From assembly GCA_017964485.1 (NCBI GenBank), contig JAGCRW010000011.1, forward strand, positions 1-37,048: DNA of 37,048 nt. Reading direction: 5' to 3'. The notes under the pieces were generated by a model that saw nothing but the letters and a program-made list of their open reading frames with translations, did not search any database and was not told the DNA's origin. The DNA comes from Muribaculaceae bacterium. GTDB taxonomy: Bacteria > Bacteroidota > Bacteroidia > Bacteroidales > Muribaculaceae. Position numbers and translations under genes: made by a program. This document shows positions 4,099-29,294 of the stretch, in pieces (the first letter of the stretch is position 1; the number at the start of each line of letters is the position of its first letter).

Positions 4099-4159
4099 TT
4101 TGAGACAAACACAACAAAAATGCGAGTAAGCAAGAGATGGCTGAACTTGTTCAATGCCT

Positions 4160-4238
4160 AAGATAGACTTCATCTCGGCATAAAAAATCAAAAAAAATGT
4201 TTTTTATTTTGTTCTGCACTATGTTTGCACTATCTTTG
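4160..4238 (+). repeat. Promoter-bearing hairpin repeat, copy C (upstream of mlaD)
   Basis: This is a diverged copy, in opposite orientation, of the element at 5636-5715 and 28223-28302. The outer stem is AAGATAG (4160-4166) with CTATCTT (4230-4236). The other copies have AAATTAG/CTAATTT in the same place, so two base pairs have changed on both sides. An A-rich/T-rich inner stem lies around 4183-4209. Shared blocks with the other copies include CTCGG, an AAAAATCAAAAA tract and TTTGCACTA. Its distal end supplies the mlaD promoter. Confidence 0.65.
4208..4238 (+). promoter_or_regulatory. Promoter of the mlaD-like gene
   Basis: TTTG at 4208-4211, a 19-base spacer and TATCTTTG at 4231-4238 match the Bacteroidota consensus (TTTG, 19-21 bases, TAnnTTTG). 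A second -7-like octamer, TATGTTTG, lies 11 bases earlier (4220-4227) but has no well-placed -33 box. The leader to the ATG at 4285 would be about 40 bases. Confidence 0.75.
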
Positions 4239-4284
4239 CAGGTTGAAATAAATAAGAACACATTATCAATAGATTAAAATATCG

Positions 4285-5235
4285 ATGAAGAAAAATATAA
4301 TTATAGGCGCAGTAGTGGTTCTGGCATTGGGATTGCTCTACTGGGGAATCGAGTTCCTGAAGGGCGTAAACCTCTTTGAGCCAAAGAATTATTACATAGC
4401 GCGTTTTGAGAAGGTTGATGGTTTGACTGTTTCGGCTCCAGTGACTGTGAACGGTTTCCAGGTGGGTCTGGTTAAGGAACTGAACTTTGACTACAATACC
4501 AACGAGATAGAGGTGAAGATGAGCCTTGACGATGACCTTAAGATTCCCATGGGCTCATCGGTGTCGTTATCGAGCGGGCTGCTTGGCGGCGCGTCGCTTG
4601 TTCTTAATCTTACTAAAAATGAAGCCTACCATAAGGTGGGAGATGTGATTCCGAGCGCGGTAAATGCCGGACTGATGGACAAGGTGGGCAGCGACATCAT
4701 GCCTCAAGTGAACGAGATAATGCCCAAGGTGAATGATATCCTCGCCAATGTGAACACCTTGACGTCAAATCCCGCTTTGCATAACTCGGTGTCGCAGTTT
4801 GACGACATCACTCAAAAAATCAACGCCAGCGCCAAAGATTTAACTGTGTTGATGAACAACCTCTCGGCCCTATCGCAAAACCTCAACGGCAGTGTGCCTG
4901 GTGTGATAAACGGATTCAGCGGCATCGAGACCAAGGTTGATGGCACGATGAGCAATATACAGACACTCACATCAAACTTAAACAATAAAGTTAACGACCT
5001 TCCTACCCAGCAGTTGCAACAGACAATCAATGACTTGAATGCCACACTTGCCAACCTGAAAGTGCTGACTGCTGAGTTGAGCAGTAAACTTAACGACCGC
5101 AACTCTTCTTTAGGCTTATTACTGAATGACAGGCAGTTGTATGACAACGCCAATGGAGTGGTCATGAGTCTCGACTCATTGCTGATTGACTTAAAAGCCA
5201 ATCCCAAGAAATACGTGACCATTAAAGTCTTCTAA
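4285..5235 (+). CDS. MCE/MlaD family lipid-transport protein
   Basis: A 316-residue envelope protein. Residues 4-24 form an N-terminal membrane anchor and about 36-115 form the MCE domain (YYIARFEKVDGLTVSAPVTVNG, GLVKELNF, IPMGSSVSLSSGLLGGASL). The rest is a long amphipathic helical region rich in Asn, Leu and Ser, as in substrate-binding MCE proteins of phospholipid transporters. MlaD homologs form hexameric rings that carry lipids between inner and outer membranes together with a permease (MlaE) and an ATPase (MlaF). Neither partner is in this window, so they would be encoded elsewhere. The gene has its own promoter (4208-4238) and a strong terminator (5256-5292), so it is probably monocistronic. 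The family call is firm; the transported lipid is unknown. Confidence 0.9.
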   Translation: MKKNIIIGAVVVLALGLLYWGIEFLKGVNLFEPKNYYIARFEKVDGLTVSAPVTVNGFQVGLVKELNFDYNTNEIEVKMSLDDDLKIPMGSSVSLSSGLLGGASLVLNLTKNEAYHKVGDVIPSAVNAGLMDKVGSDIMPQVNEIMPKVNDILANVNTLTSNPALHNSVSQFDDITQKINASAKDLTVLMNNLSALSQNLNGSVPGVINGFSGIETKVDGTMSNIQTLTSNLNNKVNDLPTQQLQQTINDLNATLANLKVLTAELSSKLNDRNSSLGLLLNDRQLYDNANGVVMSLDSLLIDLKANPKKYVTIKVF

Positions 5236-5292: not shown

Positions 5293-5635
5293 CTTTATTT
5301 TTATATTTGGATTTTAAACATCAACAAATAAAGGACTTTTACATTTTAGCTGGAAGCAGTTTTGCTTATTATTTATAGTAGTGGACAACTCTAAGGTATT
5401 GAAATATAGGAGTGTGTGATATTGATACTTACCCTGTTTAAAGTGAGTAATGCAAAGCACTGATAATCAATGACGTTATAACTGTTTCAAAAAAAGCAAA
5501 TTTTTTTTCATTTTTTTTTAAAGAAATATAGTACGAAATTTGTACTGCTAAAACAAGCCCATTATAGTGCCGTTTTCATAAATCATTACTTGAGAATTAT
5601 TTTTTCTCTAGTGGTTAAATGACACGCATATAGGG

Positions 5636-5715
5636 AAAATTAGTGCAAACCGAGAGAAGAATAAAATGAAAAACTAAGATTTTCATTTTTACTTCCGAGG
5701 CGCCGCCTAATTTAT
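5636..5715 (-). repeat. Hairpin repeat, copy A (dnaA leader), promoter boxes decayed
   Basis: An 80-base element, identical to copy B (28223-28302) at 70 of 80 positions without gaps. The outer stem pairs AAATTAG with CTAATTT, and the inner 10-base stem pairs AAAATGAAAA with TTTTCATTTT. Compared with copy B the inner stem has a compensatory G-C to C-G exchange. In the promoter orientation it points away from dnaA, and the two boxes read TTTA and TAATTTTC instead of TTTG and TAATTTTG. It ends 15 bases before the dnaA ATG. Confidence 0.8.
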
Positions 5716-5730
5716 ACAAAAAGAGTTAAA

Positions 5731-26268: not shown

Positions 26269-28200
26269 TTAAGTCCTTTCAGCTATTAACTCCAGTGCCT
26301 CGCTTGCCTCTTCCCATTGCGCCATGATTTCCTCGAGCTGGTGGTTTAGCTGCTCGTGGCGGGAATAGATTTCAGGATCGGTGGCATTGCCTTGCGACAG
26401 TTGCTCCTCAATCTCGGCTATGGCAGCCTCGGTGTCGGCAATCTGCTGCTCGAGTGTTTTCACACGCTTCTCAGCGCGGCGCACTTCTCGCTCATGCTCC
26501 TTCTTCTCCTGATAGCTGAGTTTTGATGCCGTCATTATCCTTTCCTGCTGTGGAGCAGCGATTTTCTCCTTTATTTCAAGCTGTTGCAGCGACTGAATCT
26601 TCTTTTTCTCAAGGAATTCATAGATGCCGCACAGGTGCTCACGCACGCGATGGTTGCCAAACTCATAGACCTTGCTCACTAGTCCGTCGAGGAAATCGCG
26701 GTCGTGCGAGACAACAATCACAGTGCCATCAAAGTCGGCAATGGCGCTTTTGAGTATGTCTTTGGTGCGCATGTCAAGGTGGTTGGTAGGCTCATCAAGG
26801 ATAAGCAGGTTAACCGGCTGGAGCAGCAGTTTGAGCATCGCCAGTCGTGCTTTCTCGCCTCCCGACAGAACCTTCACCTTCTTCTCACTCGCCTCGCCGC
26901 CAAACATAAATGCGCCCAGCAGGTCGTTGATGCGAGAGCGAATATAACCCACTGCCTCATAGTCGATGGTGTCAAATACTGTTATATCCTCATTGAGCAG
27001 TTGTGCCTGATTTTGAGCAAAATATCCTATCTTCACGTTGTGGCCTATCTGAAGACTTCCATTGAAGGGAATCTCATTCATTATGCACTTGACAAGAGTT
27101 GACTTGCCAGCGCCGTTCTTGCCCACAAACGCCACCTTCTCGCCGCGTTTAATAGTGAAAGAGACATTGCTGAACACATTCAGGTCACCATAGTTCTTTT
27201 TCACATCCTCGGCGATGATTGGATAGTCACCCGAACGCGGTGCAGGAGGAAACTTGAGGCGAAGATGTGTGTTATCCACCTCATCAATCTCGATGCGCTC
27301 AACCTTCGCCAACTGCTTGATGCGGCTCTGCACCTGCACAGCCTTAGTGGCTTTATAGCGGAATTTTTCAATAAACTCTTCGGTATCCTGAATCATCTTC
27401 TGCTGGTTGTCGTAGGCGCGGCGCTGCTGCTCCAAGCGTTCCTTGCGCAACTCTACGAAATGTGAGTAATTCACTTGATAGTCATAGATTTTGCCAAGCG
27501 AAATTTCAATAGTACGAGTGGTCACATTGTCAATGAAAGCGCGGTCGTGGCTCACCAGCAGCAACGCACCACGACGAGTCTTGAGGAAATCTTCTAGCCA
27601 CTGAATCGATTCAATGTCAAGGTGATTAGTAGGCTCATCGAGCAGCAGTACATCTGGACGCTGAAGAAGCAGTTTGGCAATCTCCACACGCATGCGCCAA
27701 CCGCCGCTGAACTCGCTGGTGGGACGGTCGAAATCGCTACGCTCGAAGCCCAAGCCTATTAAAGTCTTCTCTAACTCAGCCTCATAATTCTCGCTCTGCA
27801 TCATAGCGCGCAGGTCGGTTTTCTCCGAAAGTCGCTCCAGCAAAGCCTGGTAATCATCGCTCTCATAATCGGTGCGCTCTGCAATCTCCTTATTGATGGC
27901 ATCAATCTCTCGGTCAAGCTCTTTAATATGGTCAAAGGCTTTTGCAGCCTCCTCGCGAAGGGTGCAGTTGTCAACGAGCCGCATCTGCTGCGGCAGGTAA
28001 CCAATGGTCACATCGCTCGGCTTAGACACGCTGCCACCAGTAGGAATCTGCAAGCCAGCGATAATCTTAAGCATGGTAGATTTGCCCGCACCATTCTTGC
28101 CAACAAGAGCGATCCTGTCGTTCTTGTTGATCACATAATTTATATTGTCAAACAACGGCCGAGCACTAAACTCAACCTTGAGATTCTGAATTGAAATCAT
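26269..28200 (-). CDS. ABC-F family ATPase
   Basis: A 643-residue protein with two ABC ATPase domains and no membrane segments. ABC-F proteins act on ribosomes or as translation factors. Domain 1 has Walker A GKNGAGKST (34-42), signature SGGWRMR and LLLDEPTNHLD. The interdomain linker, about 80 residues, is rich in Arg, Gln and Lys (the P-site tRNA-interaction region). Domain 2 has GKNGAGKST, LSGGEKARL and LILDEPTNHLD. A C-terminal coiled coil, about 555-640, has alternating charged heptads. The chosen start (ATG at 28200, MISIQNLKVEF) places the first strand at the N terminus; the longer frame to 28263 would run into a hairpin repeat. That repeat supplies its promoter. The subfamily (Uup-like or other) is uncertain. 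Confidence 0.93.
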   Translation of the reverse strand: MISIQNLKVEFSARPLFDNINYVINKNDRIALVGKNGAGKSTMLKIIAGLQIPTGGSVSKPSDVTIGYLPQQMRLVDNCTLREEAAKAFDHIKELDREIDAINKEIAERTDYESDDYQALLERLSEKTDLRAMMQSENYEAELEKTLIGLGFERSDFDRPTSEFSGGWRMRVEIAKLLLQRPDVLLLDEPTNHLDIESIQWLEDFLKTRRGALLLVSHDRAFIDNVTTRTIEISLGKIYDYQVNYSHFVELRKERLEQQRRAYDNQQKMIQDTEEFIEKFRYKATKAVQVQSRIKQLAKVERIEIDEVDNTHLRLKFPPAPRSGDYPIIAEDVKKNYGDLNVFSNVSFTIKRGEKVAFVGKNGAGKSTLVKCIMNEIPFNGSLQIGHNVKIGYFAQNQAQLLNEDITVFDTIDYEAVGYIRSRINDLLGAFMFGGEASEKKVKVLSGGEKARLAMLKLLLQPVNLLILDEPTNHLDMRTKDILKSAIADFDGTVIVVSHDRDFLDGLVSKVYEFGNHRVREHLCGIYEFLEKKKIQSLQQLEIKEKIAAPQQERIMTASKLSYQEKKEHEREVRRAEKRVKTLEQQIADTEAAIAEIEEQLSQGNATDPEIYSRHEQLNHQLEEIMAQWEEASEALELIAERT

Positions 28201-28221: not shown

Positions 28222-28252
28222 CAAAATTAGTGCAAACCGAGAGAAGTACAAA
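28222..28252 (-). promoter_or_regulatory. Promoter of the ABC-F gene, inside repeat copy B
   Basis: On the minus strand, TTTG (complement of 28249-28252), a 19-base spacer and TAATTTTG (complement of 28222-28229) match the Bacteroidota consensus. The leader to the ATG at 28200 would be about 15 bases. The -33 box lies in the inner stem of the repeat and the -7 box in its outer stem. Confidence 0.75.
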
Positions 28253-28302
28253 ATCAAAGACAAAGTTTTTGATTTTTATTTCCAAGGTGCCGCCTAATTT
28301 AT
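28223..28302 (-). repeat. Promoter-bearing hairpin repeat, copy B
   Basis: An 80-base element matching copy A (5636-5715) at 70 of 80 positions without gaps. The outer stem is AAATTAG/CTAATTT and the inner stem AAAATCAAA with TTTGATTTT. The ten differences include a swapped G-C pair in the inner stem and a C to T change that keeps a G-U pair. It lies between the divergent ABC-F and dus genes and carries the ABC-F promoter. Confidence 0.8.
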
Positions 28303-28320
28303 CAAAAATTACATACAAAA

Positions 28321-28367: not shown

Positions 28368-29294
28368 ATGATAAATGATATTAAAATATTTGCAGCGCCG
28401 GTGCAAGGGATTACTGATTGCCATTGGCGTAATGCGCATCATGAGATTTTTGGTGGAACAGATGGTTATTTCGGACCGTTTATGCGTGTGGAACACAAGG
28501 AGATACGCAAACGTGACCTATTTGACGCTAATCCTGAAAACAATACCGTGCCATCGTTCACACCTCAGATTCTCGCCTGCCAGCCTAAAGACGCTCTGCG
28601 CATGGTAGAGGCTCTGAAGGAGATGGGACACAGCTCCATCGACATCAACCTTGGGTGTCCATTTCCTCCTATCGCTCTGCATCACAAAGGCTCAGGACTG
28701 CTGCAATATCCCGATGAGGCAGAGAAGCTATTCAAGGCTCTGAGCAAGGTTGAGGACGTTACCTATAGTGTGAAGATGCGCTTGGGCTGGGATGAACCAA
28801 TTCAATGGAGAGACATTATTCCGCTCTTTGACCTAATTGAGCCTACTCACATAACCGTGCATCCTCGCACGGGACGGCAGCAGTACAAAGGTGTGCTTGA
28901 CCTTGACCAATTCAACGCCATTGTCGCCTCATGTCACTACCCTATCATCTACAATGGCGAACTGAAAACCCTCGACGACATCTCGCGCATGAGCATGATA
29001 CTGCCTGGCATCGCAGGTATGATGATAGGTCGTGGACTTATAGAAGACCCCGCCATGCTCTGTCCAGGAAAAGCGACAGCCGACAACTACTGCGAACTCC
29101 ACAACCGTCTGCGTGACGCTTACACCGAGCAACTCAACGGAGGCGAGCACCAACTGCTCTTGAAAATGAAGTCGCTCTGGGAAACCTTCCTTCCCAACGC
29201 TCCACACAAGGCGTTAAAAGCCATCAAAAAAGCCACCTCAATGGCAAAATATAATGTAGCCGTAAGCGAACTTTTCTATAGTCTTGAGGAATAA
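28368..29294 (+). CDS. tRNA-dihydrouridine synthase
   Basis: A 308-residue FMN enzyme that reduces uridines in the tRNA D-loop. It opens with FAAPVQGITDCHWRNAH, the Dus start pattern (APMxGxTD). DINLGCPFPPIALHHKGSGLL carries the catalytic cysteine in NLGCP. VKMRLGW, THITVHPRTGRQQYKG, IIYNGELKT and MIGRGLIEDP form the FMN and phosphate sites. The start is the ATG at 28368 (MINDIKIF); the frame can be opened at 28341, inside the promoter, which is unlikely. The subtype (DusA/B/C) is not assigned. A MITE-like element begins directly at its stop codon. Confidence 0.93.
   Translation: MINDIKIFAAPVQGITDCHWRNAHHEIFGGTDGYFGPFMRVEHKEIRKRDLFDANPENNTVPSFTPQILACQPKDALRMVEALKEMGHSSIDINLGCPFPPIALHHKGSGLLQYPDEAEKLFKALSKVEDVTYSVKMRLGWDEPIQWRDIIPLFDLIEPTHITVHPRTGRQQYKGVLDLDQFNAIVASCHYPIIYNGELKTLDDISRMSMILPGIAGMMIGRGLIEDPAMLCPGKATADNYCELHNRLRDAYTEQLNGGEHQLLLKMKSLWETFLPNAPHKALKAIKKATSMAKYNVAVSELFYSLEE

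Follow-up and report, generated by a model that had tools for sequence, protein, structure and literature searches.

The window, i.e., the whole stretch of 37,048 nucleotides analyzed here, carries a short hairpin repeat between an ABC-F ATPase gene and a divergent gene, and two further copies of the repeat lie at lower coordinates (Table 1). The element is ~70–90 bp long, and the focal copy comprises 80 bases. The preliminary description had aligned positions 28223–28302 with 5636–5715, and we obtained the same result: 70 of 80 ungapped positions are identical, the dnaA-side copy has G/C and the ABC-F copy C/G at element positions 33 and 49 (a compensatory swap), and position 57 is C in the former and T in the latter.

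Table 1. Coordinates of the genes, repeat copies, and candidate promoter boxes in the window.
Feature	Position	Strand	Remarks
TATCTTTG-subfamily copy	4156..4241	+	46 nt 5′ of MlaD-domain gene at 4285
dnaA-side copy	5632..5717	-	between dnaA start and the gene upstream; boxes decayed (TTTA, TAATTTTC)
ABC-F ATPase gene	26269..28200	-	two ABC_tran stretches and ABC_tran_Xtn
Repeat 5′ of ABC-F, putative promoter	28222..28303	-	predicted promoter end at low coordinate; absent in L141 and L145
-7 box of ABC-F copy, TAATTTTG	28222..28229	-	candidate box, matches TTTG/TANNTTTG consensus
-33 box of ABC-F copy, TTTG	28249..28252	-	19 nt 5′ of -7 box
Native -7 box of ABC-F, probable remnant	28304..28311	-	now TAATTTTT; TAATTTTG in both empty relatives
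Divergent gene beside ABC-F	28368..29294	+	putatively tRNA-dihydrouridine-synthase-like, by sequence resemblance

It had also been proposed that the repeat delivers a promoter. Both predicted boxes and their spacing were found upstream of the ABC-F gene as described, and they match the consensus given for Bacteroides fragilis promoters in PMC9330008. The distance to the gene needed correction: the ATG begins at 28200, and 21 nt, not 15–20, separate the -7 box from the start codon. The TTTG at 28222–28225 coincides with the TTTG of the insertion target. On the comparative evidence given below, promoter delivery is probable for the ABC-F copy, but it did not hold for the dnaA-side copy, which we rejected as a dnaA promoter because its box end is directed away from dnaA and both boxes are broken. 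The remaining copy is a diverged member (81.6 bits with the covariance model) that carries the box TATCTTTG, preceded at 19 nt by TTTG.

A second palindromic repeat (AAAAATGCGA..TAAGCGAG .. GCGAGCGTGAGCATTTTATC) adjoins or interrupts some copies of the element. It was found at seven distinct places in the own-genome stretches searched (L035, L039, L044, L053, L059, L065, and L074), and at about 4116–4158 of the window, where it was matched by eye only.

Copy number, structure, and distribution

The preliminary description had made its claim depend on further copies in this genome. In the assembly of the host, a rumen bacterium (2.73 Mb, 120 contigs), blastn gave 46 matches at E ≤ 1, and a covariance model built from 26 copies gave 54 copies at E ≤ 3.4e-6, its 87 rows including weaker matches and reverse-strand echoes of the same places. 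The partial blastn matches lay at or beside the listed copies when compared by eye, and no parent element with the same ends was found in this genome by blastn at E ≤ 1. The inverted ends read AAATTAG/CTAATTT, and the target duplication is at most 4 bp (TTTG), often non-identical on the left and right. The main subfamily has TTAG, GTAG is present only within the stem of the TACCTTTG subfamily, and the TATCTTTG subfamily has ~9 extra bases at its left end.

The copies at 28222 and 5635 fold better than 200 of 200 shuffles on either strand, and the 4159 copy alone did not fold significantly better than its shuffles (z about -1). Among 107 copies (106 distinct) from the host genome and its relatives, changes on both sides were observed in 17 of 23 pairs, 95.4% of the cells pair vs. 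83.0% after shuffling, and the covariation score is 0.345 vs. 0.119; this alignment was fitted to the model and is thus biased toward structure, and slid controls pair in 39–52% of cells. In the unfitted first alignment of 26 copies, both-side changes occurred in 8 of 23 pairs. No excess of G·T over A·C was found (29 vs. 37, p = 0.39, a rough test because the copies are related), and neither strand was favored, so the hairpin symmetry looks like a constraint on DNA, which fits better than one on RNA.

It is very improbable that the repeat is an RNA element, i.e., a terminator, leader, or small RNA acting in read-through transcripts. The stable predicted fold of two window copies and the 22 of 53 own-genome copies that lie after a same-direction gene would agree with such a role; however, the G·U excess is missing on both strands, the predicted promoter of the element points outwards, and no Rfam match was found at gathering scores in the window or in L032.

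With covariance model R1 at E ≤ 1e-6, the element was detected in at least 56 of 61 genomes of the genus (0–64 copies per genome), at least 36 of 119 genomes in a sample of the family (12 of 30 genera), and at least 22 of 295 genomes in a sample of the order (14 of 184 genera, 13 of which belong to families other than the host's); these counts are lower bounds because filters were stricter and the number of candidates scored was limited (at most 15 per genome in the order sample). The closest named loci belong to metagenome-assembled genomes labeled Muribaculaceae, Prevotellaceae, Porphyromonadaceae, or Bacteroidales, and many of their names refer to ruminants or the rumen. The model was used here because the pattern TTGCACTANNTTTGC, tried as a marker for the phylum and order, mostly marks plain promoters: most of the 15 loci inspected by eye were of this kind, without the hairpin, and the model matched only 2 of 20 such loci. 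In viral sequences, a strict pattern gave no matches and a looser pattern gave two, of which L335 is, by eye, a chance match. The other, L336:5531–5609 (IMGVR_UViG_3300014039_000545), appears by eye to be a complete member of the TACCTTTG subfamily; it lies on a putative viral contig of 47 kb, which suggests possible carriage of the element by phages.

Placement of the copies relative to genes

Placement was analyzed for 53 own-genome copies, i.e., the 54 copies minus one cut by a contig end, with gene starts called by a simple codon-usage gene caller. A same-strand start occurs within 200 nt of the box end in 48 of these copies, compared with 765 of 1,994 position-orientations (38%) in a null set of copy-free intergenic DNA from the same stretches (p about 3e-15). 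None of the 53 copies lies inside a called gene, and the opposite end faces a start in only 14. TTTG is found 19–20 nt 5′ of the -7 box in 45 copies. The integrity of the box is tied to facing a gene: 42 copies have an intact TAnnTTTG and face a start, none has an intact box without facing one, and the broken boxes are divided between 6 facing and 5 non-facing copies (Fisher p = 1.6e-4), although broken-box copies may be under-sampled because they score lower with the model. Two of the six broken-box, gene-facing copies are the upstream members of tandem pairs, and in another, C9:1215, TAACTTTG starts 2 nt further on. In the relatives, represented by one high-scoring copy per genome (2 of 54 were left out as too short), 42 of 52 copies face a start no more than 200 nt away, and no copy falls within a gene. 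Ten of the 50 intact-box copies in this set have no start within that distance; eight of these have a same-strand gene further on, one has a minus-strand gene, and one has none called.

The downstream genes are unrelated to one another. Pfam matches at 1e-10 were obtained for 27 of 30 scanned proteins, including DNA primase, class I tRNA synthetase (E/Q), topoisomerase IV A, CTP transferases, polyprenyl synthetase, and class II aldolase; several of these genes are usually essential. At C61, a TPP riboswitch (L032:2112–2263; 53.7 bits vs. a gathering score of 54.3) that precedes a TonB-dependent receptor gene begins 12 nt after the box, which makes a transcription start just outside the element plausible. 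The consensus boxes, the decay of the boxes that do not face genes, this riboswitch, and the position of the element as the nearest promoter before usually essential genes all suggest that it acts as a promoter.

At dnaG (L048:2088–2103), the -7 box ends about 5 nt before the ATG in both the filled and empty forms, which suggests that the dnaG mRNA is leaderless or nearly so.

Empty sites and insertion junctions

At the ABC-F locus, a protein search with the divergent gene yielded 15 named loci. The same intergenic region lacks the element in RGIG7531 (L141) and RUG13112 (L145), and RUG12310 (L144) has a copy on the ABC-F side, although the insertion base is not identical. In RGIG8108 (L142), a copy lies instead at the -7 box of the divergent gene, where the empty form TTGTACTTTTG|CAAAAAAGAC corresponds to the filled form TTGTACTTTTG|GATAAATTAGG...GCACTAATTTTG|CAAAAAAGAC. 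The remaining 11 loci have a different upstream region.

This comparison was extended to 20 own-genome sites, hand-picked for clean ends near a gene, and to draft assemblies of relatives. Orthologs were readable at 18 of the 20 sites, an empty relative was found at 14 of the 18, and at 13 of the 14 a native TAnnTTTG carries the element at its 3′ end, these octamers being derived from hand-chosen strings. Among the first 12 sites, seven had an empty ortholog at a native TAnnTTTG, namely those of fbaA, an RlmL-like methyltransferase, a penicillin-binding protein, dnaG, a ThiF-family gene, a SpoU methylase, and a kdsB-like gene, these names being putative and based in part on Pfam matches. The dnaA site was empty in two relatives, with an insertion point that could not be aligned, and C88, C1, C61, and C23 were filled or not alignable in the relatives examined. 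The other eight sites included two without a usable ortholog (C35 and C113:47760), and all six of the rest had an empty relative at TAnnTTTG, matched by eye. All five relatives were empty at C113:6411 and all three at C71:2818; one relative each was filled at C94 and C104. Eleven relatives lack the element at fbaA, where only one leader (L275) aligns, and the leader alignment at the SpoU site (C44) is offset by 1 or 3 nt. At C41:39345, another TAnnTTTG lies closer to the gene than the targeted one, which is upstream of it. Among the representative native promoters, only those of fbaA and dnaG have an exact -33 TTTG. The repeat is real, abundant, and mobile, and the filled state is probably the derived one.

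Strong structural conservation and consistent placement could also be expected of a fixed regulatory element, such as a regulon operator or an insulator kept by selection. However, copy numbers of 0–64 within one genus, the empty orthologs at 14 of 18 readable sites, and the unrelated functions of the downstream genes make this explanation very improbable.

The two junctions differ in the origin of the nn bases of the box. The right box carries the nn of the element (AT, or TC in the TATCTTTG subfamily) regardless of the native bases. It reads TAATTTTG even where the native nn is not AT but CC, CT, or AC, as at C69, dnaG, the ThiF-family gene, C44, the kdsB-like gene, fbaA, C71:2818, and L142. 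In the left box, the native nn is preserved at C69, dnaG, the ThiF-family gene, C44, C71:2818, C41:39345, C90, C113:6411, L142, and in the window, and a different nn is found at the kdsB-like gene, C9, C94, and C104; the left box of fbaA could not be judged, as an older truncated copy lies upstream. Since the right nn is that of the element and the left nn is mostly native, the exchange most likely takes place within TTTG. The left four bases, natively TTTG, are now GTTA at C69 and C71:2818; TTTA at dnaG, the ThiF-family gene, and C44; TTTT at C9, C90, and in the window; TTTG at the kdsB-like gene, C41:39345, and L142; and ATTG or TCTG at C113:6411, C104, and C94. The altered bases may be either element-borne sequence or the result of later decay. 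As a separate observation, native TACCTTTG appears as TACCGTTA at the left junctions of two independent insertions, C69:9200 and C71:2818 (L037 and L058), which are rather alike for random decay.

Across all 53 copies, the left flank is TAnnTTTG in 7, TAnnTTT with another last base in 8, one step further off in 18, and unlike it in 20, the last group including truncated copies and subfamily copies whose left end is extended. TAnnTTTG is missing on the left of all five copies that do not face a gene. Several copies are arranged in tandem and joined at a box, and junctions such as GCACTAATTTTGGATAAATTAGGC form an inverted-arm site.

These flanks bear on the possibility that an ordinary repeat, like a miniature inverted-repeat transposable element (MITE), inserts at any TTTG or at random and survives only where a promoter is rebuilt, so that the specificity for -7 boxes reflects selection. 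The 20 unlike left flanks agree with this, as do some non-facing copies (C26, C98:58136, and the dnaA-side copy) whose left flank ends in TTTG without TA. On the other hand, if every TTTG within 210 nt were equally likely to be used, all 13 insertions would fall on TAnnTTTG boxes with a probability of about 1.5e-5, an argument weakened by the fact that the sites were hand-chosen, and insertions slightly 5′ of the native promoter should be equally harmless. Overall, we consider that selection among unspecific insertions is unlikely to account for the pattern, while retaining it as the chief competitor.

Insertion model and comparison with known systems

The best explanation, and in our judgment a highly probable one, is that the element is a non-autonomous, promoter-homing mobile repeat that inserts at the -7 boxes of Bacteroidales genes. 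The idea of a structured repeat that delivers a promoter is supported by sequence comparison, and it needs to be extended: beyond bringing a promoter, the element appears to enter an existing -7 box and to assume its position. In this model, a hairpin of about 70–90 bp would insert in one orientation at TAnnTTTG, with the exchange inside TTTG. The left side would keep the host TAnn followed by TTT(G/A/T) or a GTTA-like remnant, and on the right side, the element would supply TTTG-N19/20-TAnn, followed by TTTG and the unchanged host leader. The native promoter would be pushed about 80 bp upstream, and the full promoter of the element would drive the gene from the old position, so that the element would contribute the -33 box as well as the TAnn half of the -7 box, while the host leader stays in place. 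Insertion would be tolerated even before usually essential genes because a complete promoter replaces the native one in place. Tandem arrays would result from the insertion of a new copy into the box of an older one, and mobilization would presumably occur in trans, by a recombinase or transposase recognizing the box.

It is an evenly balanced question, in our view, whether a recombinase recognizes the -7 box itself, as a sequence or as the melted open promoter, and swaps the upstream half of the promoter by a Campbell-type exchange within TTTG; such an exchange would be consistent with a tyrosine recombinase. If so, each jump would swap the upstream promoter half, including that of essential genes, and keep the start site and leader. 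Promoters would then be homogenized over time across the genome and across Bacteroidales, and the spread to dozens of core-gene promoters without killing the host would be explained. The insertions would represent a natural experiment on promoter swapping in Bacteroidota that predicts transcription starts almost to the base, and the question of which enzyme targets promoters becomes testable.

Within the mobile reading, a Y1 (HUH) transposase, IS200/IS605- or RAYT-like and acting via single-stranded DNA, seems distinctly improbable as the mobilizer. The hairpin, the target tetranucleotide at the left end, and the lack of a duplication beyond 4 bp fit Y1 chemistry. However, in the 61 genomes, the number of Y1 genes does not correlate with that of elements (Spearman -0.08, p = 0.53); 5–54 copies occur in 10 genomes that have no Y1 match, and 1–7 Y1 genes occur in five genomes that have no element match. 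In this comparison, genes may be missing from draft assemblies, and an enzyme may have been lost once the element had spread. An element copy lies within the examined flanks of only 1 of 30 Y1 genes, and no strand asymmetry was observed. A Y1 or RAYT mobilizer is thus not supported, there being neither correlation nor linkage.

Among known systems, CTnDOT of Bacteroides resembles the element in that its integrase IntDOT has a target (GTANNTTTGC) resembling a -7 box and performs a Campbell-type exchange, whereas CTnDOT itself is large and conjugative. Like the element, BrickBuilt and the other MITEs of Porphyromonas gingivalis are Bacteroidales repeats without coding capacity; they are longer than the element and were set apart by description. 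BrickBuilt contains a minisatellite, according to PMC4596501. REPs and REPINs with RAYTs are also intergenic hairpins of high copy number in tandem arrangement, but PMC3733652 describes REPs as 20–40 bp long and tagged by GTAG or CGTC at one end, while the element measures 70–90 bp, has no such foot tag, and is not linked to a Y1 gene.

The Correia element (CREE) of Neisseria is similarly short, non-coding, mobile, flanked by inverted repeats, and present in many copies. According to PMC2649163, one end of CREE carries a -35 box and part of a -10 box, so that insertion can complete a promoter; insertions are often at TA and some at CA; and strain FA1090 has 18 potential promoters of that type, 15 of a second type, and 76 CREE 5′ of a gene. 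A promoter at the gene-facing end is a predicted trait of our element too, in 42 of 42 intact-box copies of the host genome. In contrast to CREE, 42 of the 53 copies combine an intact Bacteroidota -7 box with a gene-facing position, and the sites in empty relatives are native -7 boxes. The target and ends of CREE are absent here: the element targets TAnnTTTG with exchange in TTTG, and its ends are unlike the CCGGTACGG end of CREE (PMC2649163). Putative mobile promoters are short repeats to which promoter activity is ascribed (Matus-Garcia 2012; van Passel 2014; both as summarized in PMC8049555). The element agrees with this notion in that its predicted promoter is repeated before unrelated genes, with an occupancy that varies among relatives.

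By the traits compared, the element is not a Correia element, a REP, or a member of an Rfam family. A literature search, in which most subscription journals were out of reach, returned no promoter-bearing repeat that inserts at an existing -7 box and rebuilds the box in place. The element would work in the manner of those Correia elements whose insertion completes a promoter, and it would fit the mobile-promoter idea. Promoter-bearing mobile repeats are already known; what is new is that native -7 boxes are regularly used.
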